Below are positions 50,741-64,000 of a DNA stretch of 64,000 bases, piece by piece (within the stretch, counting starts at the first letter, position 1; each line of letters starts with the position of its first letter). Below the pieces are notes generated by a model, which searched no databases, was not told the origin of the DNA, and saw only the letters and a list, made by a program, of their open reading frames with translations. The DNA is from Sphaerisporangium album (lineage in GTDB: Bacteria > Actinomycetota > Actinomycetes > Streptosporangiales > Streptosporangiaceae), in NCBI RefSeq assembly GCF_003323745.1, contig NZ_QOIL01000003.1, positions 526,232 to 590,231 of the forward strand, read 5' to 3'. A program made the translations under genes and the position numbers.

Positions 50741-51301
50741 GGCGGAACCCTATCCCCCGCGGTCCCCGCGATCCCGGGCCGCCTCCCACGCTTCGCCCGC
50801 GTCGCGGGACTTTCGCGTTCGCGGCCCGCGGCGTACGTCCCGGGGCGGCAAAGCGCGTAGATCACCGCGAATTAGCTAATAACGGCCATTACTCATAACG
50901 ACCCCATTTCCCTTGATCATCTACGTCGGCGGCGGTTGCCGGAGCAAGGCCGCGACCGCCGCCAAAGAATGACACAGCGGCACGCCGACACGCCGTCCGA
51001 GAAAAATTTCCCGGGCCGCTACCGGATTCGCTGGACACCTTCGCGCCGATCTTCGCGGGCACGTTTTCCTCGGCACAACAGGGCTTCCTGCCTGCGCCGA
51101 CGCCCGGAGCTCCGCCCGACTTATCATGAAAAATGGCCGCGTAGTGACCTTCTGTTTTTTGCAATTAAGTCGCCGCTCACGCGAATCTCCCGCATGTCGG
51201 ACAACGGTATTGAGGTCGACCGTGAGTAGGGTCGGTCATGCAGGTGCGCCAGCATCGAGGTGCTCCTTTACTTTGAACTGCAAAAAGAAAAGGACCGCTT
51301 T
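50741..51301. other. Long A/T-richer intergenic region
   Basis: These 561 bases are clearly richer in A/T than the genes around. No coding sequence is convincing. A 9-base stem GGCGGCGGT/ACCGCCGCC (50928-50936, 50955-50963) is present. No known riboswitch consensus was recognised. The last 30 bases contain AAAAAG and AAAGGA before ATG 51302. It may hold a complex promoter or a small RNA. Confidence 0.4.
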
Positions 51302-52312
51302 ATGAAAGACGTCGGTCACTCACGGTCTCTCCAACGTAATGTCGGTCGTTCATGGCTGACGGCAGCTCTCACGGGCGCTCTCGCGATCGGCGTGCTCGCC
51401 GCCACTCCCGGCAGCGCGTACGCGATCCAAGCGCCGCAAGGCGCGAAGGCAGCGTCCCTGCTTCCGTCCGGCCCCGTGAAGACGGGCTTCGTCGTCACCG
51501 TCCGCCGGCAGATCGCGACCACCACCGCTCTGACCTCGTCCCAGAACCCGACCAAGGTCGGACACTCCGTCACCTTCACCGCCACGGTGCGGGCGACCGG
51601 CAGCAACATCATTCCCACGGGCACCATCGTCTTCCGTGACGGCTCCCGGGAACTCGGGAGCGCCGCGCTCGAAGGGACGGGCCAGGCGACCTACTCGACC
51701 TCCAGCCTGGACGAGGCCTCTCACAACATCACCGCCTTCTACCAGGGCAACGCCTCGTTCGACCCCAGCACGTCGCCCGTGCTGATCCAGAAGATCGAGG
51801 CCGAGAAGAAGGACGACGACAAGAAGAAGGACGAGGAGAAGAAGAAGAAGAAGGAGAAGGAGGAGCAGGACAAGAAGGAGAAGGACGACAACTGGAAGGA
51901 CGACGACGAGGAAGAGGATGACGACCCCGGCGTCATCCGCCACCACGATCACGACGACCTCGATCATCTGTGCCGCCACTTCCGGCACGACAACTTCGAC
52001 GAGGACGACGAGTCCGGCAGCTCCCGCCACCACCGCCGCGAGCGGTCGGACAGGCTCCGCAGGCTCTGCGCGCAGTGGCACCGGGAGAACAGGCACGTCA
52101 CCCTGGTCGACAAGGGCATCCGTCGTCACGTCGAGGGCTACTACGACCATGGCGGCGGCCACCGGTCGCACTGGGACAGCCATCACCACCGCCACGGCTG
52201 GGTGCCCGGGCACCGCCACGAGTACCACGAGCACTACAAGCCGCACAAGAAGTTCCACCACAAGAAGCACCACTACGTGAAGCCGGTGCACCACTTCGCC
52301 GTCACCGGTTGA
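51302..52312 (+). CDS. Secreted Ig-like protein with Lys/Asp and His-rich tails
   Basis: A 336-residue secreted protein. ATG 51302 follows AAGGA. A signal peptide with a long basic start ends near residue 41 (PGSAYA). Residues about 70-165 form one Big_3_5 Ig-like repeat (TTALTSSQNPTKVGHSVTFTATV...TGTIVFRDG...ASHNITAFYQGN). About 165-205 is almost pure Lys/Glu/Asp, passing from basic to acidic (DDDEEEDDDPG). The last 130 residues are extremely His-rich with Asp, Arg and Tyr, and two Cys. Such a tail could bind Zn, Ni, Cu or phosphate polymers at the cell surface. No known whole-length family. Confidence 0.82.
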   Translation: MKDVGHSRSLQRNVGRSWLTAALTGALAIGVLAATPGSAYAIQAPQGAKAASLLPSGPVKTGFVVTVRRQIATTTALTSSQNPTKVGHSVTFTATVRATGSNIIPTGTIVFRDGSRELGSAALEGTGQATYSTSSLDEASHNITAFYQGNASFDPSTSPVLIQKIEAEKKDDDKKKDEEKKKKKEKEEQDKKEKDDNWKDDDEEEDDDPGVIRHHDHDDLDHLCRHFRHDNFDEDDESGSSRHHRRERSDRLRRLCAQWHRENRHVTLVDKGIRRHVEGYYDHGGGHRSHWDSHHHRHGWVPGHRHEYHEHYKPHKKFHHKKHHYVKPVHHFAVTG

Positions 52313-53303: not shown

Positions 53304-53496
53304 CCGGTCGACCATCGTGACGACCGAGCCGCCCCACTCCGCTCCGTCGGCCCCCGCCATCCACTCCCGCCACCGAAGCGACCCACTCGAACGGCGCGAC
53401 GCGGCGGGAAGCGGAACGGCGGCAACGGCGCCTCCTACTGCGGCCCACCGGCCCACCAGACAGACGGGACACAAGCCGCACCGTGTCGCCCCACAC

Positions 53497-54408
53497 TCAC
53501 CCTGTCGCGACGGCACGGCGATAGGCACCAGGAGTCACGCCGAAATACCGGGTGAACCACCGCGTGAGGTGGCTCTGGTCGGTGAAGCCCGTCTCCACCG
53601 CCACCTCCACCAGCGGACGTCCCTGGACGAGCAGCCGCTGGGCCGCGCGCAGGCGAAGCTGCCGCTGATAGTCGCTTGGCGCCATGCCGTACACCGCCTG
53701 AAACGACCGATAGACGGCGAACCGGCTACGCCCGGCGGCCGCCGCCAGATCACTCGCGGAAACGCCCTGGTCATCGGTGTCATGCAACAGCTCCCGCACG
53801 ACACGCGCCGTCCCCACATCGGCTCCACCGCGCCCGGAAAGCCCCGCGCCCGAACGCCCGTCCGCCACATCCAGAACACCCGACATCCGCGGGGTTCCGG
53901 CCGGCGCGACATCCGGCCACGACTCCCCGACCCGCGCACGGGCCCGCCCGGCCATGGCCGTCACCACGCCGTCCAGCAGCTCGTCCCTGCGCAGCGCCGA
54001 AGCGGGACCGTCCACCAGCGCCTGATGCAACAACCGAAGCTTCCCCGCCAACCCCCCACGACCGCTCACCACCGGCTCGGTGAACAACGGAAGCCCGACC
54101 CGGCGTCCCGCCGCCTCCGCCAGAACATCGGCGACCAACCCGGGGCCGATGTGCACCATGCGATAAGTGAACCCCAACTCATCCGTGGCATGCCCGTCAT
54201 GCGGATCGTCCGGATTGAACACCATCACCATGCCGGCCGTACTCGTATGCGCCGCCCTCCGGCACGTGAAGCTCTGCGCGCCTTCCTCGGTGAACCCGAA
54301 CGAGTACGTCTCATGACTGTGCCGGTGATAGACGTGCCGCTCGAAGTGCGCGTGCATGGCCTCCAACGGCCGCTCCGGCGACCGCCAGTACCGAGCCCAG
54401 TCCCCCAT
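53497..54408 (-). CDS. AraC-family transcriptional regulator
   Basis: A 303-residue regulator beginning at ATG 54408 after GGGGG. The N-terminal cupin sensor has HFERHVYHRHSHETYSFGFTEEGAQSFTCRR and VFNPDDPHDGHATDE. The C-terminal double HTH has SDLAAAAGRSRFAVYRSFQAVYG and VAVETGFTDQSHLTRWFTRYFGVTPGAYRR. It is divergent from the DUF2000 gene, a frequent pairing, and probably controls it. Confidence 0.93.
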   Translation of the reverse strand: MGDWARYWRSPERPLEAMHAHFERHVYHRHSHETYSFGFTEEGAQSFTCRRAAHTSTAGMVMVFNPDDPHDGHATDELGFTYRMVHIGPGLVADVLAEAAGRRVGLPLFTEPVVSGRGGLAGKLRLLHQALVDGPASALRRDELLDGVVTAMAGRARARVGESWPDVAPAGTPRMSGVLDVADGRSGAGLSGRGGADVGTARVVRELLHDTDDQGVSASDLAAAAGRSRFAVYRSFQAVYGMAPSDYQRQLRLRAAQRLLVQGRPLVEVAVETGFTDQSHLTRWFTRYFGVTPGAYRRAVATG

Positions 54409-54564
54409 CCCCCAATTCTGCTCCGGTCTCCGGCCTGCCCGGCACCACCGACCTCCGGCCAAGCCCACGACACCGCCGCGACTCCTCCCTGCCGCCCCCT
54501 GGACGACCCGGCCCCCGCACAGGCGTACAAGACGAGCACCACCCGACCCGAGCACTGTGATCTC

Positions 54565-54975
54565 ATGCGTTTCGACACGAAGATCGGCATCGTCGTCCGG
54601 GAGGACCTGGCCGTCTGGCAGAAGCTCAACGTGACCGCCTTCCTGGCCAGCGCCGTCGCCGCAGCGGCTCAGGACGCGATCGGCGAGCCCTACGCCGACG
54701 CCGACGGCAACACCTACCTCGCGATGCTCGGCCAGCCCGTCCTCATCTACGCCGCCGACACCGAGGCCCTCACCCGCACCCACGCCTGGGCCCTGAGCCG
54801 AGGCCTCCCCACAGCGGTCTACATCGAGGACATGTTCAAAACCGGCCACGACGAAGCCAACCGCGCCACCGTCCAAGCCCACACCACCGAAACCCTCCCC
54901 CTCGTAGGCCTGGCCGTCCACGGCCCCAAAAACGCCATAGACAAAACCCTCAAGGGCCTCTCCCTCCACCCTTGA
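54565..54975 (+). CDS. DUF2000 family protein
   Basis: A 136-residue protein starting at ATG 54565. It begins FDTKIGIVVREDLAVWQKLNVTAFLASA and has YLAMLGQPVLIYAAD and DMFKTGHDEANRATV, the DUF2000 pattern, which has a peptidyl-tRNA hydrolase II-like fold but without demonstrated hydrolase function. Divergent from the AraC regulator. Confidence 0.88.
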   Translation: MRFDTKIGIVVREDLAVWQKLNVTAFLASAVAAAAQDAIGEPYADADGNTYLAMLGQPVLIYAADTEALTRTHAWALSRGLPTAVYIEDMFKTGHDEANRATVQAHTTETLPLVGLAVHGPKNAIDKTLKGLSLHP

Positions 54976-55195
54976 CACGTAGGCCTCACACCGACGACAC
55001 AACCGCCGCCGCGCGGAAAGCCTCCTCGGTGGGGACCGCTGGTCTACGGAAGAATGCGAAAAGGCCGACCAAGCCGGATCGGCGGACTCAGTCGCCCGAG
55101 AACCAGGTAGCGGACCAGCGGAGGCGGGCGTGGACTTCGCGTCGATCATCGAGAGCAACCGGGATCCTGTTCGCCCCGCTATGGCGCGCAGGGGC

Positions 55196-56056
55196 CTAGA
55201 AATTGAAGACCGCTCCTGTGTACGCCGTCAGTTCGCAGTGGTTGCCGAAGGTGCGCTCGAACCACATGTGGTTGCCGTCCCATAGGCCGGAGGCGGAGAC
55301 GGTGATGGGGTCGTATTGCTTTGCGCAGCCGGTGTCGCGTGAGGGTTTGAGGTCGGTGATGTCGCCTGAGACCGGGTCGAGAAGGCGGCAGGCTTCGGAG
55401 GCGCGGGCGTGCGTGCCGCCGAGGGGGCCGCACTGGAGGAAGGCGATCCGGTCGGCGGGGGTGACGGACTCGCCTCGGGCGATCGTCAGCAGGAGCGCTC
55501 GGCTGACGCCCTTGCCCTGGGCCGAGGTGGTGGAGTCGGGTGGCGGTCCGCCGGGGAATGGGTGGAACGCCGACGCGGACGGGAGCGCCCCTTTCCCCGG
55601 TGGGGCCGGCAGCGCCATAGGGCCGTCCGGCGCGGGTCGTCTCTGTGGGGTGTCGCCGACGGACGTGCCATCCGGCGCGGTCCCGGCGGACCCATCCGGC
55701 TGGGCGCCGGCAGATCCGTCACGCGGGCCTCCGCCGGATCCATACCGTGGACCTCCATCAGATTCATACCGTGGACCTCCACCGGATCCATATCGTGGGC
55801 CTCGGGCAGGCCCATCCCATGGGACTCCAGGTCCGTGCCACTCGGCGCCGGATCCGTCCCATGGGGTGCCGAGAGCCGCGTCCGGCGGGGTTCCGGGGGA
55901 TATGGCGTCTGGCGCGGCGCCGGCGGATGGTGGGGCCGAGGGGAAGAGGGCGCCAACGGCGCCGAAGGTCACGGTCGCCACGGCCGCCAGGCTGAGGGTC
56001 GCCACGGCGCCCGTGACGACGAACGTGCGGGTCAGGCCACGGTGCGGACGTCTCAT
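55196..56056 (-). CDS. Secreted subtilisin-inhibitor (SSI) family protein with repeat linker
   Basis: A 286-residue secreted protein. An N-terminal hydrophobic helix (about 10-38) serves as signal or anchor. Residues about 60-160 are a Gly/Asp/Pro/Tyr-rich linker with an 8-residue repeat (GPRYGSGG). Residues about 183-286 match Streptomyces subtilisin inhibitor: LLLTIARGESVTPADRIAFLQC, then CRLLDPVSGDI, then the reactive loop GCAKQYDPITV, WFERTFGNHCELTAYTGAVFNF. By alignment with SSI (C-P-M-V-Y-D-P), P1 is Lys246 and P1' is Gln247, so trypsin-type proteases should be inhibited. Four Cys in the right places support the two SSI disulfides. It is divergent from a cluster of trypsin-fold proteases. 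The 130-residue linker is not found in classical SSI. Confidence 0.9.
   Translation of the reverse strand: MRRPHRGLTRTFVVTGAVATLSLAAVATVTFGAVGALFPSAPPSAGAAPDAISPGTPPDAALGTPWDGSGAEWHGPGVPWDGPARGPRYGSGGGPRYESDGGPRYGSGGGPRDGSAGAQPDGSAGTAPDGTSVGDTPQRRPAPDGPMALPAPPGKGALPSASAFHPFPGGPPPDSTTSAQGKGVSRALLLTIARGESVTPADRIAFLQCGPLGGTHARASEACRLLDPVSGDITDLKPSRDTGCAKQYDPITVSASGLWDGNHMWFERTFGNHCELTAYTGAVFNF
55704..55799. repeat. 24-base tandem repeat inside SSI-like gene
   Basis: Units at 55728-55751, 55752-55775 and 55776-55799 (CCTCCxxCxGATxCATAxCGTGG), with a more diverged unit before 55728, encode the 8-residue GPRYGSGG-like repeat of the linker. Confidence 0.75.
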
Positions 56057-56322
56057 CAGAATCCCCTATCCAGCAGGACGTCGAGCCGTCGCCGCCCCCC
56101 TCGTGTGTGTGCTTGCCGATCTCGCGCCGACCCCTGCTCGATGAGCAAGATTCGACGTACCAGGTATCTCTCCGGTTCCCGCACTTTTATAACAACCACA
56201 TAACGGACATCCGCATTTGTCCGGTTTCGCCACAGTTGCCAAGATCGCCGGAGTACGGTCGATGAGTCTCTTTACGTACGCATGGGACCTTCCCGGGCAT
56301 CCCATGACATAGAAGGAGCTCA
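56057..56322. promoter_or_regulatory. Divergent region between SSI-like gene and protease copy 1
   Basis: This 266-base gap is shared by inhibitor and protease 1, giving room for common regulation. It is A/T-rich near 56185-56230. Just before the protease ribosome binding site (GAAGGAG) a hairpin CATGGGA/TCCCATG (56281-56287, 56300-56306) is present. No Crp-type box is seen here. Confidence 0.5.
56281..56306 (+). ncRNA. 5'-leader hairpin of protease copy 1
   Basis: CATGGGA and TCCCATG pair perfectly over a 12-base loop that includes CCCGGG. It ends five bases before the GAAGGAG site, the same place as the hairpins of copies 3 to 5, though the sequence differs. Confidence 0.5.
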
Positions 56323-57828
56323 ATGAACACCCGAGCAAGGCGCCTGATCCTCCCTCTCGGTGGTGCCCTCATCGCCACCGGCATGATCGGCGCGACCCTC
56401 ACCACCGCGGCGACGGCACAGGCCAAGCCGTCCCCGGTGAAGTCCGGCTCGCTGGCGAACGGGACCGACGCGAAGGCCATCGCGGGGTCCTGGACCGCCG
56501 GCAAGCTGAAGTCCGCGAAGTCCTACCTCGAGGACTCCTCGCTCTCCGGCAAGATGAAGGCGAGCACGCGCAAGGCCTCCGCCGACGGCAAGGCCGGTTC
56601 GATCGCCCCCCAGGGCGCCGGCGGCAAGACCGCGGGCTCGTCGAAGAACGTCAACCTGCCCACCAACGTGGGCAAGGTGTTCTTCCAGGTCGACGGCAAG
56701 CCGTACTGGTGCTCCGGCACCTCGATCCAGTCGAAGTACCACAACCTGGTCGCCACCGCGGGCCACTGCGTCTACGACACCGACAAGAACAAGTACGTCG
56801 ACAACTTCGTCTTCATCCCCGGTTACTACCAGGGCAAGGCGCCGTGGGGCATCTACGTCGGCGCCAAGGTCAACCTCCACGACGACTTCTCCGTCTACGA
56901 GGACTACGACTACGACTACGCCTTCGTCAACGTCTACAACGGCGTGAAGCAGACCGGTGAGAAGATCGTCGACAAGACCACCTACGACGCCTACAAGGGT
57001 CCGAAGTGGGCGAAGGACGAGGAGATCTCCAAGGAGGAGTACCAGAAGAAGTACGACGAGAAGGGCGGTGAGACCGCCGACGCGTGGTCGAAGAGCACCG
57101 GCACCGAGATCGTCATGCCGTGGGGCACCAAGGGCGGCAAGAAGGTCCTCAAGGAGGTCAGCAAGGAGGACTTCGACAAGGCTCCGGCCTGGAACTCCAA
57201 GGTCAACTACTCCAAGGCGCCGGCCAAGACCTCCACGGAGATCGTCGACGAGGTCACGTACAACAAGTACACCGGCCCCGGCTACAAGAAGATCGTCGAC
57301 TCGGCGTACACCATCACCCACTACTTCGTGAAGTACTGGGTGCAGGAGTCGACGTCGGTCAAGTACTACAAGACCGTCTTCCACATCAGGACCTTCCAGG
57401 ACGCGGGCCGTCTCGGCGACAACGTCGGCGGTCAGGGCTTCACGTGGAACCGGAGCACGAAGTCGAAGTACTTCAGCTTCGGCTACCCCACCTCCGCCCA
57501 CCTCGACGGTGACAAGGTCTACACCGGCGAGACGATGAAGTGGTGCTACGGCCAGGCGGGCGCCGCTCCGGCCGTCGCGAAGTACAAGGCGGAAGAGCAG
57601 CTGGCCATCAAGTGCGCCTTCACGCCCGGTGCGACCGGCGGCCCCTGGCTGATCCAGTACTCCAACGCCAAGCGGACCGGTTACGTCAACGGCGTCGTGA
57701 GCCTGACTCTCGACACCGACGGCAACAAGCGGTACGACCGGATCACGACGCCGTACTTCAACAGCGACACGTACGGCATCTACAAGTACGCGGCCAACCT
57801 GTGGACCGGGAAGCTTACGACGAGCTGA
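56323..57828 (+). CDS. Secreted trypsin-like (S1/V8 fold) protease paralogue 1, Thr at serine position
   Basis: A 501-residue secreted protein, ATG 56323. A signal peptide ends near residue 34 (ATAQA). A propeptide-like segment with SWTAGKLKSAKSY precedes VGKVFFQVDGKPYWCSGTSIQS. The catalytic His148 is in VATAGHCVYD and the Asp is in DYDYAFVNVYN (Asp198). Where GxSGGP is expected the protein has GATGGP, so the nucleophile is Thr438 (codon ACC). Between Asp and this site lies an insertion of about 150 residues with two repeats (VDKTTYDAYKGP, VDEVTYNKYTGPG). Cys pairs around His148 and before Thr438 are kept. It may be inactive, a binding protein, or a Thr protease. Confidence 0.88.
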   Translation: MNTRARRLILPLGGALIATGMIGATLTTAATAQAKPSPVKSGSLANGTDAKAIAGSWTAGKLKSAKSYLEDSSLSGKMKASTRKASADGKAGSIAPQGAGGKTAGSSKNVNLPTNVGKVFFQVDGKPYWCSGTSIQSKYHNLVATAGHCVYDTDKNKYVDNFVFIPGYYQGKAPWGIYVGAKVNLHDDFSVYEDYDYDYAFVNVYNGVKQTGEKIVDKTTYDAYKGPKWAKDEEISKEEYQKKYDEKGGETADAWSKSTGTEIVMPWGTKGGKKVLKEVSKEDFDKAPAWNSKVNYSKAPAKTSTEIVDEVTYNKYTGPGYKKIVDSAYTITHYFVKYWVQESTSVKYYKTVFHIRTFQDAGRLGDNVGGQGFTWNRSTKSKYFSFGYPTSAHLDGDKVYTGETMKWCYGQAGAAPAVAKYKAEEQLAIKCAFTPGATGGPWLIQYSNAKRTGYVNGVVSLTLDTDGNKRYDRITTPYFNSDTYGIYKYAANLWTGKLTTS

Positions 57829-57843
57829 CGCGAGCCACGGCAA

Positions 57844-57878
57844 GGTAGGGGGCCCGGGTCCGTATCGGGCCCCCTACC
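57844..57878 (+). terminator. Terminator after protease copy 1
   Basis: GGTAGGGGGCCCG (57844-57856) pairs perfectly with CGGGCCCCCTACC (57866-57878) over a 9-base loop, 15 bases past the stop. Confidence 0.75.
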
Positions 57879-58019
57879 GGCCCCTCCGCCGCGGTGATCG
57901 TGGGACGTCCGATAACGAAGTGAACCCAGGTCGGCCAAGTACCGTGCCGAAAAGTAGTTGATCTGGAAAAATCGCCCTTCACCGTTGTCTGCACACTTCT
58001 GACCCCCGGAAGGTACGAA

Positions 58020-59213
58020 ATGCCACCCCGAGCGAAGCGGATCGCGCTCACTCTCACCGGCGCGCTCGCGTCCGCGTGCGTGGTGATGTCCGCCGGCGCG
58101 GGGCCTGTCGAGGCGCGGGCCTCAAGCCAGACGGCGCCCGCCGGCATCACGTCCGTCCCCCTGGCGCAGAGTGAGGCGGACACACAGAAGGTCGTCGACT
58201 GGTGGACGCCGGACCGGCTCAAGCACGCCAACAGCTACATCCCCAGGACGGCCGCGGCGAGCACCGGCGCGGCGAGCCCGGAGGCCACCGGAACCGCGAG
58301 CGCCGCCGCGACACCGGCCGCGGCGGGGGCCACCAGCGCTCTGACCTCGACGGGTGGCACGACGACCGCCCTGGAGGGCTCGGCTCCCCCGAAGACGGCG
58401 GCGCAGGTCGCCCACTCCAGGAACGTGAACCTCCCGCCGACCGTGGGCAAGGTGTTCTTCCGCAACGGTGACGCCGAGTACTGGTGCTCGGCCTCGTCGG
58501 TGCACTCCAAGTACGGCAACGTCGTCGCCACCGCGGGCCACTGCGCCTACGACGTCAAGAGAGAGAAGCCCGTCGACTACTGGGTGTTCATCCCCTCGTA
58601 CTCCGACGGGGCGACGCCGTACGGCATCTACGTCGGGCACACACTGCACCTCAACGAGAAGTACGCGGCCACGGGCGACTTCGACTACGACTACGCCTTC
58701 GTCACCGTCCACAACGGCTACCGCTGGGACGTCGACAGGGACGCCAACGGGCGGATCAAGAAGGACCCCAAGGGGCAGCCGGCCTACAAGATCGTGGACA
58801 CCGGCCGGCTCGAGAGCCGCGTCGGCGGGCAGGGCTTCGCCTGGAACCGTGGGTTCACCGTCGCGGCGTACGCGTTCGGCTACCCGGCCGGCCAGCAACC
58901 CAACGGGACTCGGCCCTACACCGGCCGGACGATGGAGTCGTGCGCGACGAAGGCCACCAGCAAGATAGCCACGCAGAAGTGGGAGCTGGACCAGGGCGTC
59001 CTGTTCAAGGGGTGCGCGTTCACGGCCGGGGCCAGCGGAGGCCCGTGGCTGATCAAGTACGACAACGCGCGGCGCATCGGCTACCTCAACGGCGTGACCA
59101 GCCTGACCTACAACCTGGACGGCGACGGCCGCAACGACGCGATCTCGTCTCCGCTCTTCAACACGGCGACGTACCTCGTCTACTCCTACGCTGCGCGGCA
59201 GAAGACCGACTGA
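58020..59213 (+). CDS. Secreted trypsin-like protease paralogue 2
   Basis: A 397-residue secreted protease starting at ATG 58020 behind GGAAGG. After a signal peptide (to about residue 34) comes WWTPDRLKHANSY, an Ala/Thr/Ser-rich linker of about 50 residues, then VGKVFFRNGDAEYWCSASSVHS. The triad is complete: His174 in VATAGHCAYD, Asp in DYDYAFVTVHN, Ser339 in GASGGPWL. The insertion between Asp and Ser is short (about 35 residues). It is the most diverged member and has neither the shared Crp box nor the covarying hairpin. Confidence 0.92.
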   Translation: MPPRAKRIALTLTGALASACVVMSAGAGPVEARASSQTAPAGITSVPLAQSEADTQKVVDWWTPDRLKHANSYIPRTAAASTGAASPEATGTASAAATPAAAGATSALTSTGGTTTALEGSAPPKTAAQVAHSRNVNLPPTVGKVFFRNGDAEYWCSASSVHSKYGNVVATAGHCAYDVKREKPVDYWVFIPSYSDGATPYGIYVGHTLHLNEKYAATGDFDYDYAFVTVHNGYRWDVDRDANGRIKKDPKGQPAYKIVDTGRLESRVGGQGFAWNRGFTVAAYAFGYPAGQQPNGTRPYTGRTMESCATKATSKIATQKWELDQGVLFKGCAFTAGASGGPWLIKYDNARRIGYLNGVTSLTYNLDGDGRNDAISSPLFNTATYLVYSYAARQKTD

Positions 59214-59229
59214 CCGCGCGGATCCCTCT

Positions 59230-59269
59230 ACGAGAGAAGGCCCGGCATGACGCCCGGGCCTTCTCTCGT
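59230..59269 (+). terminator. Terminator after protease copy 2
   Basis: A perfect 16-base stem, ACGAGAGAAGGCCCGG (59230-59245) with CCGGGCCTTCTCTCGT (59254-59269), encloses an 8-base loop, 17 bases past the stop. Confidence 0.8.
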
Positions 59270-59423
59270 CTCGGCCCGAGCAGGTACGGCACGTCATCGC
59301 GCGACGCCGTTTCAGGGTCAACCGGAACATCGATTTCGGAACTTCCAGAGTGGGTCCCGAATCAGAGTGATCGCGGCTCCACCAGGGAGGGGGCGACCGA
59401 TGCCTCAGGTTCCCTGAACGGGG

Positions 59424-59439
59424 TGTGATTTACGTCACA
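59424..59439. promoter_or_regulatory. Crp-type box upstream of protease copy 3
   Basis: TGTGATTTACGTCACA fits TGTGA-N6-TCACA exactly, the consensus of cAMP receptor proteins (Crp/GlxR). It lies 216 bases upstream of the -10. Confidence 0.7.
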
Positions 59440-59632
59440 CCGGAAGTTCGTGACCCTCTGTGACAGTCAACCCCGTACAACGTATTCAGATCGCGGGAAT
59501 CCCACCGAGGGCGTGACTGGCCTGAGCAATCGCCCGAAAGGCGCGTCGAGTTGACTGCGCGCGTCCACCGACGGACGCGATCACGAAAAGGACACGGGCG
59601 AGACGCCGCCTTACCAGATGTTCGCCGGCACA

Positions 59633-59660
59633 TTGCGCGGCCGCTTCGCGCCGCTATCTT
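59633..59660 (+). promoter_or_regulatory. Promoter of protease copy 3
   Basis: TTGCGC (59633-59638) and TATCTT (59655-59660), 16 bases apart, occur with the same spacing before copy 4. The leader would be about 63 bases. Confidence 0.6.
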
Positions 59661-59685
59661 CCTCCTTATCCCTTTCCTGACGTAT

Positions 59686-59704
59686 GGGACGCAGGATGCG
59701 TTCC
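59686..59704 (+). ncRNA. Conserved 5'-leader hairpin, protease copy 3
   Basis: GGGACGC-AGGAT-GCGTTCC forms a 7-pair stem with a G-U, placed 14 bases before AAGGAG. Stem changes relative to copies 4 and 5 preserve pairing. Confidence 0.6.
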
Positions 59705-59729
59705 ACGTCCAGACCAAGGAGTTCCCCCC

Positions 59730-60914
59730 GTGAACACCCGTGTGAAGCGTCTCGTTCTGCCGCTGGGTGGCGCCGTCGCCGCCACCACCATGATCGGCGC
59801 GACCCTGGCCGGCACGGCCGGCGCCACCACCGCTCCGGCCAAGAAGCTGGTCACCATGGCTTCGGCCTCCCAGGCGCAGAAGATCAGCGAGTACTGGACC
59901 GCCAACGGTGGCGCCAAGTTCAAGGCCGCCACGCAGTACACCAACAACAGCGAGACCTCCGGCAAGATCAAGCTGGGTGGCGGCGACGCGGCCCCCGACG
60001 GCAAGGCCGGTGTGGTTCCCCCGATCGGTGGCGAGCCGAAGGTCACCGCCAAGGTGAAGAACATCAACCTGCCGAAGACCATCGGCAAGGTGTTCTTCGT
60101 GGCGGACGGCAACCTGTACTGGTGCTCCGCGTCGTCCATCCAGAGCAAGTACCACAACCTGGTCGCCACCGCCGGGCACTGCGTGTTCGACGAGAGCATC
60201 ACCAACGGCGCGCTCGACTACTGGGTCTTCGTCCCGGGCTACTACCAGGGCAAGGCTCCTTGGGGCGTGTACGTCGGTAAGGCCGCCTACACCCACTACG
60301 ACTTCGCGGTGTACGAGGACTTCGACAGCGACTACGCCTTCGTCACGGTCTACAACGGCCTCACCTTCGGCGGCGTGAAGCAGGTCGACAAGGCCACCTA
60401 CGACAAGTGGCAGAGCCTGAAGTACACCAAGGGCGAGAACTACTACGTCGTGCTGTTCAAGGACGCGGGTCGTCTCGGCGACAACGTGGGTGGCCAGGGC
60501 TTCACCTGGAACCAGAAGCCGGGCCAGCCGGTCTACATCTTCGGCTACCCCGCGTCGGCGCACCCCGACGGTGACAAGCCGTTCACCGGTGTCACGCCGA
60601 AGTGGTGCTACGGCAAGACCTTCGCCGCCGCCCCGGCCGCCGCGTTCAAGGCGGAGGCCCAGATCGGCCTGAAGTGCTCCATGACCGCCGGCTCCTCCGG
60701 TGCGCCGTGGATCCTGAAGTACAGCAACACCAAGCGCCTCGGCTACATCAACGGTGTCAGCAGCCTCATCGGCGACGCCGACGGCAACGGCCGGATCGAC
60801 TTCAGCACCTCGCCGTACTTCGACAGCGAGACCTACGCGATCTACAAGTCGGCCGCCAACCTCTGGTCCGGCTCGCTGGTCACCTCCGACGGTGACCTCG
60901 TCAAGAAGGCCTGA
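59730..60914 (+). CDS. Secreted trypsin-like protease paralogue 3 (GSSGAP variant)
   Basis: A 394-residue secreted protein starting at GTG 59730 behind AAGGAG. The signal peptide ends near residue 30 (GTAGA). YWTANGGAKFKAATQY, the 50-residue propeptide and VGKVFFVADGNLYWCSASSIQS follow. His150 is in VATAGHCVFD, Asp in DSDYAFVTVYN, Ser323 in GSSGAPWI; the second Gly of the usual SGGP is Ala. The Asp-to-Ser insertion is short (GGVKQVDKATYDKWQSLKY), as if the long version of copies 1 and 4 had been cut down. Over the first 200 residues it is very close to copies 4 and 5. Confidence 0.92.
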   Translation: MNTRVKRLVLPLGGAVAATTMIGATLAGTAGATTAPAKKLVTMASASQAQKISEYWTANGGAKFKAATQYTNNSETSGKIKLGGGDAAPDGKAGVVPPIGGEPKVTAKVKNINLPKTIGKVFFVADGNLYWCSASSIQSKYHNLVATAGHCVFDESITNGALDYWVFVPGYYQGKAPWGVYVGKAAYTHYDFAVYEDFDSDYAFVTVYNGLTFGGVKQVDKATYDKWQSLKYTKGENYYVVLFKDAGRLGDNVGGQGFTWNQKPGQPVYIFGYPASAHPDGDKPFTGVTPKWCYGKTFAAAPAAAFKAEAQIGLKCSMTAGSSGAPWILKYSNTKRLGYINGVSSLIGDADGNGRIDFSTSPYFDSETYAIYKSAANLWSGSLVTSDGDLVKKA

Positions 60915-60970
60915 GGGTCGGCGAGCCGGAGTCCCCGGACTCCGGTGAGCCGAACGTCGTAAAGGGACTG

Positions 60971-61002
60971 AAAGGGGCCCGGCATTCGTGCCGGGCCCCT
61001 TT
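60971..61002 (+). terminator. Intrinsic terminator after protease copy 3
   Basis: AAAGGGGCCCGGCA-TTCG-TGCCGGGCCCCTTT is a perfect 14-base stem closed by a UUCG tetraloop. A smaller hairpin (CCGGAGTCC/GGACTCCGG) comes before it, 60928-60947 region. Confidence 0.9.
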
Positions 61003-61151
61003 CTCATGCAAGGAAGGGAAACGGCCGCACGGGCTCACGGCGCACAGGAGCATCGCTTCCGGCCTCTTCGAAGCGGACGATCGGGCACTCGCGACGGCTC
61101 GAACCCGCCCCCGGGACGGTACTTCACCGCTCCCCGGTTCCCCTCAGGCCG

Positions 61152-61167
61152 AGTGATTTACGTCACA
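61152..61167. promoter_or_regulatory. Crp-type box upstream of protease copy 4
   Basis: AGTGATTTACGTCACA has one mismatch to TGTGA-N6-TCACA and shares the N6 with the copy-3 site. It lies 215 bases upstream of the -10. Confidence 0.6.
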
Positions 61168-61359
61168 GTGAGTTCGGTGACGCTTCGTGACAGTCAACCC
61201 CGTACAACGTATCCAAATCCGGTGGACGACACCCATGACGCCATCCATCTGGGTAAAGCGTGAGAAGTCCGTGAGAGTTGACTGTGAGCGTCCACGAGTG
61301 GCGAACATCACGAGAAGGTCTCGGACGAAACGGCGGCTGACCAGATCCCAGCAGACGCA

Positions 61360-61387
61360 TTGCGCAACCGGTAGGCCCCGATATCTT
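61360..61387 (+). promoter_or_regulatory. Promoter of protease copy 4
   Basis: TTGCGC (61360-61365) and TATCTT (61382-61387) are 16 bases apart, as before copy 3, though the spacer sequences differ, which supports their being functional. Confidence 0.6.
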
Positions 61388-61412
61388 CCTGGCTATCCCT
61401 TTCCTGACGCAT

Positions 61413-61430
61413 GGAGCGCTGGAGCGCTCC
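61413..61430 (+). ncRNA. Conserved 5'-leader hairpin, protease copy 4
   Basis: GGAGCGC-TGGA-GCGCTCC forms seven Watson-Crick pairs with a 4-base loop, in the same position as in copies 3 and 5. Confidence 0.6.
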
Positions 61431-61451
61431 ACGCCAGACCAAGGAGTCCCC

Positions 61452-62998
61452 TTGAACACCGCAGTCAAGCGTCTGGCTCTGCCGCTGGGTGGCGCCATCG
61501 CCGCCACCAGCATGATCGGCGCCACTCTGGTCGGCACGGCCGCCGCCACCACCGCTCCGGCGAAGAAGCTGGTCTCGCTGGCCTCCGCCTCCGAGGCGCA
61601 GAAGATCGGTAAGTTCTGGACCGCCAACGGTGGTGCCAACCTGAAGGCCGCCACGCAGTTCACCGACAACGCGCAGCAGTCGGGCAAGGTCAAGCTGGGT
61701 GGCGGCGACGCGGCCCCCGACGGCAAGGCCGGCGTGGTTCCCCCGATCGGTGGCGAGCCGAAGAGCACCGCCAAGGTGAAGAACATCAACCTGCCGAAGA
61801 CCATCGGCAAGGTCTTCTTCACGATCGGCGACAAGGAGTACTGGTGCTCCGCGTCCTCGATCCAGAGCAAGTACCACAACCTGGTCGCCACCGCCGGGCA
61901 CTGCGTGTTCGACGAGAGCATCACCAACGGCGCGCTCGACAACTGGGTCTTCGTCCCCGGCTACTACCAGGGCAAGGCTCCCTGGGGCGTGTACGTCGGT
62001 AAGGCCGCCTACACCCACTACGACTTCGCGGTGTACGAGGACTTCGACAGCGACTACGCCTTCGTCACGGTCTACAACGGCTACGTCTACGCCGGCGCCA
62101 AGCAGGTCTCCAAGGAGACCTACGACAAGTGGCAGGGCAGCAAGTCCGCCAAGGACGTCGAGATCAGCAAGGAAGAGTACGACGCGGCGCTGAAGGCCCA
62201 CAACGGCCAGCAGAGCTCCGACGGCTGGACCAAGCCGATCCCGGGTGCTCCCGAGGTCGTCGTCCCCTGGGGCACCGACGGCGCCGTCGTGGCGACCAAG
62301 GAAGTCACCAAGGACGCCTACGACGCCGCTCCGGCCGCCGACGCCAAGGTGAACTTCCACAAGTCGAACGCGAAGAAGGTCACCGAGGAGATCGTCGACA
62401 AGGCGACCTACGACGCCTACACCGGTCCGGGTGCGAAGAGCGAGCGCGACGGCGCTTACATCATCACCCACTACTACGTGGACTACGCGACCAAGGCGCA
62501 GGTCGAGTACTACAAGACCGTCTACTACGTCGTCTACTACAAGGACGCGGGTCGTCTCGGCGACAACGTGGGTGGTCAGGGCTTCACCTGGAACCAGAAG
62601 ATCGGCCAGCCGGTCTACGCGTTCGGGTACCCGGCCTCCGCGCACCCCGACGGTGACAAGCCGTTCACCGGTGTCACGCCGAAGTGGTGCTACGGCAAGA
62701 CCTTCGCCGCCGCCCCGCGGCCGCCGCGTTCAAGGCCGAGGCCCAGATCGGCCTCAAGTGCTCCATGACCGCCGGCTCCTCCGGTGGCCCCTGGATCCTG
62801 AAGTACAGCAACACCAAGCGCCTCGGCTACATCAACGGTGTCACCAGCCTCATCGGCGACGCCGACAGCAACGGCCGGATCGACTTCAGCACCTCGGCCT
62901 ACTTCGACAGCGAGACCTACGCGATCTACAAGGCCGCCGCCAACCTCTGGTCCGGCAAGATCGTCGCCGCCGACGGTGACTTCGTCACCAAGGCCTGA
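61452..62998 (+). pseudogene. Trypsin-like protease paralogue 4, frameshifted
   Basis: TTG 61452 behind AAGGAG begins a protein that would have about 514 residues. His150 (VATAGHCVFD), Asp (DSDYAFVTVYN) and a Ser in GSSGGP are all encoded, and there is a long Asp-Ser insertion like copy 1 (VSKETYDKWQGS, VDKATYDAYTGPG, HYYVDYATKAQVEYYKT). At about 62716-62720 the sequence reads CCCCGCGGCC where copy 3 has CCCCGGCC: two extra bases shift the frame, so translation ends at 62768 before the serine. The remaining 3' part continues in the new frame to 62998 with normal coding features. Either a sequencing or assembly error or a very recent inactivation. Confidence 0.85.
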
Positions 62999-63057
62999 AA
63001 CATTCGGTGAGCCGGAGCTCCGCGCTCCGGTGAGCCGAGGGCTGTAAAGGGACTGAG

Positions 63058-63087
63058 ACAGGGCCCGGCATTCGTGCCGGGCCCTGT
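63058..63087 (+). terminator. Intrinsic terminator after protease copy 4
   Basis: ACAGGGCCCGGCA-TTCG-TGCCGGGCCCTGT is a perfect 13-base stem with UUCG loop, followed by TTT. It is preceded by a smaller hairpin CCGGAGC/GCTCCGG (63012-63030). The pair duplicates the arrangement after copy 3. Confidence 0.9.
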
Positions 63088-63246
63088 TTTCGTGTCCGGA
63101 CAGGGATACCCGGCGAGCGGGCGGGAGTTTGCGCGTGCCGCATCCGGCCTGACGCGCACGCCCTAAATCAGCAAATTTCCAGGGGTTCCGGGCATCCGCA
63201 AGCGCCTTAGACGTAACGGGTGACCGGGACGGCTCCCTCGGGGTGA

Positions 63247-63262
63247 TGTGATGTGCGTCACA
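63247..63262. promoter_or_regulatory. Crp-type box upstream of protease copy 5
   Basis: TGTGATGTGCGTCACA is an exact TGTGA-N6-TCACA site with a different N6 from copies 3 and 4, 205 bases upstream of TATCTT. Confidence 0.7.
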
Positions 63263-63497
63263 CCGCCGCCGTCACCGTAGGCAATCGCCCGCACACGCCA
63301 CATTTGTCACACCAGTCACGAGCACTGACTGATCTGCGTTGACGATCAAATACGCCGCGAGGACGCCGAACCTTAGAGGACCCTTAGAAAGGTCACGGAA
63401 CGGTCACGCGACTCCGAAGATCAAAATTTCCCCGGATTCCGGTTTCCGAGGCCAAGATCTTCTCTGTATCTTCCTGGCTATCCCTTTACTGACGCAT

Positions 63498-63516
63498 GGA
63501 GCGCAGGATGCGTTCC
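63498..63516 (+). ncRNA. Conserved 5'-leader hairpin, protease copy 5
   Basis: GGAGCGC-AGGAT-GCGTTCC gives seven pairs including one G-U; intermediate between the stems of copies 3 and 4. Confidence 0.6.
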
Positions 63517-63539
63517 ACGTCCAGACCAAGGAGTTCCCT

Positions 63540-64000
63540 GTGAACACCCGTGTGAAGCGTCTCGTTCTGCCGCTGGGTGGCGCCATCGCCGCCACCAGCA
63601 TGATCGGCGCGACCCTGGTCGGCACGGCCAGCGCCACCACCGCCCCGGCGAAGAAGCTGGTCTCGCTGGCCTCCGCCTCCGAGGCGCAGAAGATCGGTAA
63701 GTTCTGGACCGCCAACGGTGGTGCCAACCTGAAGGCCGCCACGCAGTTCACCGACAGCGCGCAGCAGTCGGGCAAGGTCAAGCTCGGTGGCGGCGACGCG
63801 GCCCCCGACGGCAAGGCCGGCGTGGTTCCCCCGATCGGTGGCGAGCCGAAGAGCACCGCCAAGGTGAAGAACATCAACCTGCCGAAGACCATCGGCAAGG
63901 TCTTCTTCACGATCGGCGACAAGGAGTACTGGTGCTCCGCGTCCTCGATCCAGAGCAAGTACCACAACCTGGTCGCCACCGCCGGGCACTGCGTGTTCGA
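63540..64000 (+). CDS. Trypsin-like protease paralogue 5, cut by window edge
   Basis: GTG 63540 follows AAGGAG. The 153 visible codons hold the signal peptide, propeptide (FWTANGGANLKAATQF) and the domain start to His150 in VATAGHC. They are nearly identical to copy 4: differences include Ala-to-Ser near residue 31 and Asn-to-Ser in the TDNAQQ region, while the first 15 codons match copy 3 better. Asp and Ser are beyond the window, so activity cannot be judged. Confidence 0.9.
   Translation, partial: MNTRVKRLVLPLGGAIAATSMIGATLVGTASATTAPAKKLVSLASASEAQKIGKFWTANGGANLKAATQFTDSAQQSGKVKLGGGDAAPDGKAGVVPPIGGEPKSTAKVKNINLPKTIGKVFFTIGDKEYWCSASSIQSKYHNLVATAGHCVF

Follow-up and report, generated by a model that had tools for sequence, protein, structure and literature searches.

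A tandem array of trypsin-fold genes lies at the right-hand end of a 64,000-nucleotide stretch of the Sphaerisporangium album genome (contig NZ_QOIL01000003.1, positions 526,232 to 590,231; hereafter the window), next to a divergent gene for an inhibitor of the Streptomyces subtilisin inhibitor (SSI) family. Across related genera of these soil bacteria, more than half of the array copies compared lack the catalytic serine, and a long insert between the two barrels has been exchanged as a module. Therefore, the array is likely, with about even confidence on our part, to be a set of extracellular recognition proteins rather than digestive enzymes only, with intact SSI-adjacent copies predicted to form a small inhibitor-restrained cutting module.

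Five related genes had originally been described head to tail at this site, and the arrangement is real. The copies p1 to p5 run 5' to 3' on the + strand. Copy p1 (56323..57828; 501 aa) has the insert and a His-Asp-Thr triad (GATGGPW); p2 (58020..59213; 397 aa) has an intact His-Asp-Ser triad without a long insert, and p3 (59730..60914; 394 aa) is likewise intact. Copy p4 (61452..62998) has the insert and a broken frame near 62.7 kb in the assembly, reflecting either a pseudogene or an assembly error near the contig-end repeat. Only the 5' part of p5 is present (63540..64000) because contig C23 stops at window position 64000. An own-genome search extended the array to the right: the end of contig C31 (L025) carries a p5 tail of 136 codons together with p6 and p7, both complete, so the genome holds at least seven copies, and C23 and C31 are presumably joined here. 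In Sphaerisporangium fuscum (L030), seven copies lie in the same order on one contig, the first being cut by the edge of the fetched stretch. Residue 195 is Thr in p1, Ala in p7 and Ser in p2, p3, p6, the p4 3' piece and the p5 tail; the full triad is seen in p2, p3 and p6, p4 being frame-broken and p5 incomplete. Copy p3 lacks most of the insert and otherwise aligns to p4 at 90% DNA identity; p4 and p5 match at 90-100% in their 5' ends, beginning shortly upstream of the start codon. Signal-like N termini, judged by eye, predict that the copies are secreted. The observation of an array beside an SSI gene is thus confirmed, with the corrections that p5 is cut, p4 is frame-broken, p1 carries Thr and the copies number at least seven.

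The window proteins p1, p2, p3 and the p4 piece score below the curated cut-off of Pfam PF00089/PF13365 (best 24.7 vs 27.6 bits), and an NCBIfam search of the same four proteins returned no family. A 61-copy profile compared with solved chains matched 3wy8 (E 7.6e-33) and 3cp7 (E 6.9e-32). Folds were predicted for one Thr copy (p1; predicted local distance difference test score, pLDDT, 87) and for one Asp copy, from Planomonospora venezuelensis (L041; pLDDT 85). The best fold matches of both models were again 3wy8 and 3cp7, with template modelling scores to the target of 0.86-0.89; the next Protein Data Bank matches were glutamyl endopeptidase/Esp and trypsin-like chains. As modelled, the array copies have the double beta-barrel of the trypsin fold. 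The nearest solved relatives, Anisep of Arthrobacter nicotinovorans (3wy8) and the AL20 alkaline serine protease (3cp7), have the GxSGGPW nucleophile loop in common, but their chains of 216-219 residues lack the interdomain insert, unlike the insert-bearing array copies. We know of no array or linked SSI for either enzyme.

To survey the catalytic residues, a genome scan taking one genome per species was used to collect 77 named loci of related genera, from the best 80 of 111 stretches encoding a relative. Reading-frame pieces from these loci and from the own-genome loci L005, L025 and L026 (394 in all) were aligned, and 372 copies were kept after 18 fragments without all triad columns, three identical pieces and the frame-broken p4 piece were dropped. 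These copies are not independent, as they include close species and several loci from one genome, and in a few rows with odd loops the residue-195 column is uncertain. Residue 195 is Ser in 174 copies, Asp in 103, Leu in 75, Ala in 7, Asn in 4, and Thr, Gly and Ile in 3 each, so that 198 of the 372 distinct copies (53%) are without Ser195. Both His57 and Asp102 are retained in 172 of the 174 Ser copies (the 172/372 with a full His-Asp-Ser triad), 101/103 Asp, 7/7 Ala, 3/3 Thr and 22/75 Leu copies. With the triad columns removed before tree building, parsimony requires at least 10 changes between Ser and non-Ser. In Sphaerisporangium, copy 1 carries Thr in all four loci that show it, and the last copy, visible in seven loci, carries Ala in five of them and Ser in the other two (L031 and L097). 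Since more than half of the copies are without the catalytic serine, proteolysis, one of the processes named in the original prediction, is inadequate as a description of the array as a whole. Separately, the Leu195 copies of Herbidospora and Microtetraspora (L066, L068, L069, L071, L082 and similar) have inserts of ~60-100 residues and have often lost His57 and Asp102 too.

Selection was assessed from the ratio of nonsynonymous to synonymous substitution rates (dN/dS). Over the mature region the ratio is 0.14-0.51 for short-insert copies (Ser, Asp and Leu classes), and for the cores alone of insert-bearing copies it is 0.24-0.45. Within the Asp and Leu sets, short-insert copies and cores together span 0.14-0.45, the Leu class being represented by two Herbidospora sets only. 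These low values indicate maintained genes, most clearly for the Asp class. Judged from sequence, the non-Ser copies have the attributes of a MamO-type pseudoprotease, with the nucleophile replaced, the fold apparently kept and signs of purifying selection.

The insert is found in 86 copies with complete triad columns (p1, p4 and 84 others) and comprises ~145-190 residues between the Asp102 strand and the second barrel. In p1 it spans residues 208-361, in the linker after Asp102 (56944..57405, + strand), and is predicted to be an ordered, beta-rich module: each 10-residue block has a pLDDT of 86-97, and the model shows strand-helix units and a 35-residue final strand. The p4 insert (62082..62543, + strand; 154 aa) is of the same type as that of p1. 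Inserts are richer in Lys/Tyr than cores (21.6% vs 15.4%) and in a short repeated motif, written after viewing the inserts (2.1 vs 0.34 per 100 residues). In a search with the p1 insert only, with candidates limited by length, all 27 matches were family members of 499-519 aa, and the named ones came from Sphaerisporangium, Nonomuraea and relatives, or Streptosporangium. The ratio of nonsynonymous to synonymous differences (pN/pS) of alignable same-length inserts is 0.5-0.9, vs 0.2-0.5 for cores; the inserts evolve faster, but not above 1. We do not claim positive selection on them, since the dN/dS of 1.25-1.63 obtained for three Nonomuraea sets came from aligning unlike insert types, and same-length alignable pairs give only the range above.

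Automatic cutting into insert and core succeeded for 70 of the 86 insert-bearing copies, the p4 piece included. For 35 of these 70, insert and core find their best matches in different copies, and the insert scores less than half as many bits against the copy that matches best by core. In seven of the 35, the match bears the nucleophile-loop signature of another array position, which is a rough guide, and one of the seven (L041/L050) may involve the same array position.

The boundaries of exchange are sharp in closely related arrays. Over ~10 kb, Streptosporangium canum (L095) and Streptosporangium minutum (L100) have a median DNA identity of 97% outside the inserts, with 51 of 58 comparison segments at 90% or more, the SSI gene included, and the inserts of copies 1 and 4 have a median of 62% and a minimum of 51%. 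Similarly, Streptosporangium sandarakinum (L048) and Streptosporangium pseudovulgare (L103) are 98% identical outside the inserts (52 of 58 segments) vs 65% within them, and a Nonomuraea pair (L035/L038) drops deeply from a 93% background at two inserts, those of copies 3 and 4. Insert types are also common to more distant loci: the copy-1 inserts of S. canum L095 and S. pseudovulgare L103 have a median DNA identity of 89% and are 86% identical in protein, with the loci otherwise 81% identical in DNA and their SSIs 51% identical. Of 31 copy-1-like database proteins, 25 could be cut into core and insert; among these, whenever two cores are at least 90% identical, their inserts are either 22-30% or 67-91% identical, with no intermediates. 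Two entries named S. subroseum have cores 97% and inserts 23% identical. Another database entry for S. canum matches 92% of the query at 99% identity, which argues against misassembly. The insert pattern is replacement of a defined module, not drift. With divergence blocks in near-identical flanks and types common across lineages, it looks, at the sequence level, like a recombinational cassette of the SlpA kind.

The catalytic classes are ordered along the array. Counted from the SSI gene in the 39 loci where it is linked, position 1 has 37 Ser and 2 Thr, and position 2 has 33 Ser and 6 Asp; Ser then falls to 11/39 at position 3, 5/28 at position 4 and 1/20 at position 5. The copy on the other side of the SSI gene (left copy) has Ser in 26 of 27 cases. 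Among the 53 arrays with at least three copies and a visible slot beside copy 1, all have at least one full triad and 44 have at least one non-Ser copy.

Sites resembling CRP operators follow a related gradient. The window contains four GTGA-N6-TCAC palindromes, with 0.94 expected per whole window, and three of them lie on the + strand upstream of p3 (59424..59439), p4 (61152..61167; one mismatch, at an outer base) and p5 (63247..63262), resembling the TGTGA-N6-TCACA consensus given in PMC10033298. Across L005, L025 and L027-L103, 171 of 249 CRP-like sites fall within 400 bases upstream of copies, or 10% of bases (p 9e-109; overlapping loci counted twice, start codons by a length rule). No site precedes position 1 (0/39) or left copies (0/27), and sites precede 17/39, 22/39 and 25/27 copies at positions 2, 3 and 4, respectively. 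By class, a site lies upstream of 63/73 Leu, 55/103 Asp, 35/170 Ser, 1/7 Ala and 0/3 Thr copies. The site consensus, TGTGAT(C/T)T(G/A)CGTCACA, agrees with GTG(N)6GNCAC, which PMC10033298 reports as the Crp consensus of Streptomyces coelicolor, and the putative operators upstream of distal copies match both patterns known there from CRP/GlxR regulons of actinobacteria. The published Crp pattern alone gives a weaker split, 12/78 at positions 1-2 vs 50/108 beyond. Judged by these sites, the proteases close to SSI seem to be under separate control from the distal copies, most of which are Ser-less.

If inhibitor and array form one system, the SSI gene is expected to accompany the array. Of the 77 loci, 9 have fewer than three copies and in 15 the slot beside copy 1 is not visible, leaving the 53 arrays considered above. 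An opposite-strand SSI gene lies directly 5' of copy 1 in 39 of them. The 14 SSI-less arrays belong to Nonomuraea (12, of 17 arrays in that genus), Streptosporangium (one) and Sinosporangium (one). Within 249 genomes of the family, SSI occurs in 234 and the array family in 113 (E 1e-40), all among the 234, so that SSI is present in 113/113 array genomes vs 121/136 others. Among the matches listed, the linked SSI is the genome's only one in 26 of 32 single-SSI array genomes, the single SSI being unlinked in the other 6. Class-wide, the array occurs in 14 of 296 genomes, all within Streptosporangiaceae, and in 24 of the 62 genera of that family. Linkage thus holds in 39 arrays and is missing in the other 14, and SSI without an array, proposed as refuting the idea if found in most relatives, occurs in about half (121/234 SSI-bearing genomes).

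Co-evolution of inhibitor and array, a further part of the original prediction, was not borne out, since the SSI does not co-vary with the variable part in five locus-pair comparisons. Two locus pairs with different copy-1 inserts have SSIs 91-92% identical, and three pairs with a common insert type have SSIs only 48-51% identical; co-switching of SSI and insert was thus rejected. The SSI is a conserved but dispensable neighbour of the array. Immunity-like partner genes between copies were also considered at two Nonomuraea loci and rejected, there being no common partner. One array has a transposase-like gene between copies 2 and 3 (L037:11315-12391); the other has, between its copies 2 and 3, a gene for a 957-aa YD-repeat (RHS-like) protein (L046:12312-15185), and further open reading frames were seen.

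The inhibitor gene of the window (55196..56056, - strand; 286 aa) is divergent from p1, and its product matches Pfam SSI PF00720 with 81.8 bits (E 3.5e-23; curated cut-off 23.9), so both family and orientation were predicted correctly. Four conserved Cys align with 2tld, the closest solved chain, and the reactive loop read off that alignment has Lys-Gln at P1-P1', which also supports the P1 Lys predicted earlier. Profile and alignment make the protein a member of the Streptomyces subtilisin inhibitor/Sti family. It differs from those inhibitors in being linked to a multi-copy (pseudo)protease array and in its extra N-terminal linker: the SSI domain (residues 187-272) is preceded by a long Gly/Pro/Asp-rich linker, where the anticipated repeat was located as a 24-nt tandem repeat (55725..55829, - strand). 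The genome has three more SSI genes elsewhere.

A Lys at P1 had been taken to suit trypsin-like targets. In p1-p7, the residue six before the nucleophile position, which corresponds to Asp189 in the S1 pocket of trypsin, is Ala or Ser, not Asp. Trypsin specificity is therefore not expected and a simple P1-Lys match fails; in addition, copies 1 and 7 of the window's array have Thr and Ala at the nucleophile position. Nor is P1 Lys general: by eye, P1 in the 39 linked SSIs is Met in 26, Lys in 5, Leu in 3, Glu in 2, and Ala, Thr and Arg in one each. Of the interpretation in the original prediction, the conserved SSI-array linkage and the variation in copy number, which is seen across loci, stand; the trypsin/P1-Lys match, the co-variation and proteolysis for the whole array do not.

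Each copy had been thought to have its own terminator. Strong GC-rich hairpins do follow p1 (57844..57878), p2 (59230..59269), p3 (60970..61003) and p4 (63054..63093), all found by folding on the + strand (-32.4 to -33.4 kcal/mol, z -3.3 to -6.5), but none of the four was listed by a U-tract terminator scan. Scans for sigma-70 promoters and U-tract terminators were uninformative. Adjoining the SSI gene is a predicted AraC-type regulator (53497-55158, by eye), whose reading frame is overlapped by one on the opposite strand (53317-54975). Further left, 51260-52312 encodes a protein predicted to be secreted, in which a segment of Ig-like repeats is followed by a long stretch of acidic residues and lysine and by a tail rich in histidine; by eye it looks metal-binding. 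Two distant tandem paralogues with intact triads (36-40% identity) lie elsewhere in the genome, on contig C12 (L026:6977-9355), and the genome SSI search gave no match on that contig.

Several observations weigh against a set of recognition proteins. Ser195 is retained in 174 of 372 copies, so part of the array may simply be proteases, and dN/dS reaches 0.71-0.79 for whole insert-bearing Asp copies (two sets). As insert pN/pS does not exceed 1, it is the polymorphism of cassettes and not the substitution of codons that suggests diversification. Identity also dips to 85% or less (range 73-85%) outside the inserts, in three segments of L095/L100 and two of L048/L103, and the Nonomuraea pair L035/L038 is less clean, its copy-5 insert being half-diverged and followed by a divergent stretch. 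The within-species evidence consists of one pair of entries sharing a species label. Sphaerisporangium inserts are of one type, with no swap seen there and swaps only in relatives, and 14 of 53 arrays have no SSI in the slot.

A developmental protease cascade would explain some of this, although we consider it rather unlikely. The intact copies would act outside the cell as proteases, recycling mycelium ahead of sporulation under restraint by SSI, as by Sti in Streptomyces, and Ser-less copies would be regulators or decoys, titrating SSI or activating the intact copies. The position of SSI directly 5' of 39/53 arrays fits this account, as do its status as sole SSI in 26/32 genomes (among the matches listed), its presence in every array genome (113/113 vs 121/136 others) and the nearly always intact SSI-flanking copies (37 Ser and 2 Thr of 39 at position 1; 26/27 on the left). 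Inhibitors like Sti keep an extracellular cascade of proteases in check and are present in Streptosporangineae (PMC4255298), and MamO, a trypsin-like pseudoprotease with Thr for Ser, activates a partner protease (PMC4794232). However, SSI is missing from 14/53 arrays, its sequence is independent of insert type, the window copies have no Asp189 to receive a Lys P1, and a decoy role leaves swappable inserts unexplained.

The copies might instead be extracellular structural proteins of a sporangial or spore-surface matrix built on a protease fold, with inserts as assembly domains that match only within a strain. Array-bearing genera form sporangia or spores, the array is restricted to one family (14/296 class-wide genomes), each tandem copy of the window is followed by a hairpin and, by eye, the copies show no anchor motif. 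Yet most genera of the family are without an array (24/62 have one), intact triads occur in 53/53 arrays, and localisation in a matrix would itself be a prediction; we consider this account improbable. Birth and death of redundant protease genes, in which non-Ser copies and insert variation would be briefly kept decay products of duplication, seems very improbable. Copy number does vary, p4 is frame-broken, p3 resembles an insert deletion of a p4-like gene, Leu copies are often also without His57 and Asp102, and a transposase-like gene or other reading frames interrupt two Nonomuraea arrays. But Asp copies keep His57 and Asp102 in 101/103 cases, which largely contradicts decay for that class, and the dN/dS of 0.14-0.45 (short-insert copies and cores of Asp and Leu sets, Leu from two Herbidospora sets), the recurrent Thr of copy 1 (4/4) and Ala of the last copy (5/7) in Sphaerisporangium, and the CRP-like sites upstream of 63/73 Leu and 55/103 Asp copies all speak against it.

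For a set of recognition proteins beside a cutting module, we infer ligand and function by the following scheme. The conserved trypsin-fold domain would be a constant scaffold, and binding would fall to the interdomain insert. Several insert types would be maintained by partners, such as phage, predators, competitors or kin, that themselves evolve or fluctuate in frequency, and recombination in the conserved arms would exchange the cassettes. The distal, mostly Ser-less copies would be switched on via cAMP-CRP, and intact copies would mature or trim the family under SSI restraint. The more specific proposal of recognition by a constant scaffold, non-catalytic in most copies, plus a variable 145-190-residue interdomain module has, in our estimate, somewhat less than an even chance of being correct; under it, modules would be exchanged among strains, species, genera and array positions, and discrete types kept by balancing selection. 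The His57-Asp102-Asp195 site of the largest Ser-less class may have its own chemistry.

To our knowledge, no precedent combines a repurposed trypsin fold, SSI restraint and cassette types. Literature searches found no report of this array among the entries listed, and the words protease, peptidase, trypsin and subtilisin are all absent from the main text of PMC5431353. By analogy, the closest precedents would be MamO for the repurposed fold, Sti for an SSI-restrained cascade and SlpA for cassette types. MamO (PMC4794232) resembles Sphaerisporangium copy 1 in its trypsin fold, with Thr for Ser and His-Asp retained, but it is an HtrA-related magnetosome protein of tested function that has no variable insert. 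The Clostridioides difficile SlpA S-layer locus likewise encodes an extracellular protein with discrete cassette types, which decide phage binding (PMC8809339). SlpA is an unrelated protein of a cell-coating layer within a five-gene cassette, whereas the array cassette is an internal domain of 145-190 residues in several paralogues.

If the proposed reading is true, these bacteria use a protease fold to display interchangeable recognition modules, beside inhibitor-controlled true proteases. The array would then be a tractable example of cassette polymorphism common to several species, affecting predicted extracellular proteins in genera that produce antibiotics. It would also provide about 100 natural Ser-to-Asp copies of a textbook enzyme with the other two triad residues retained, and many Streptosporangiaceae genes annotated as 'trypsin-like serine peptidase' would not be peptidases.

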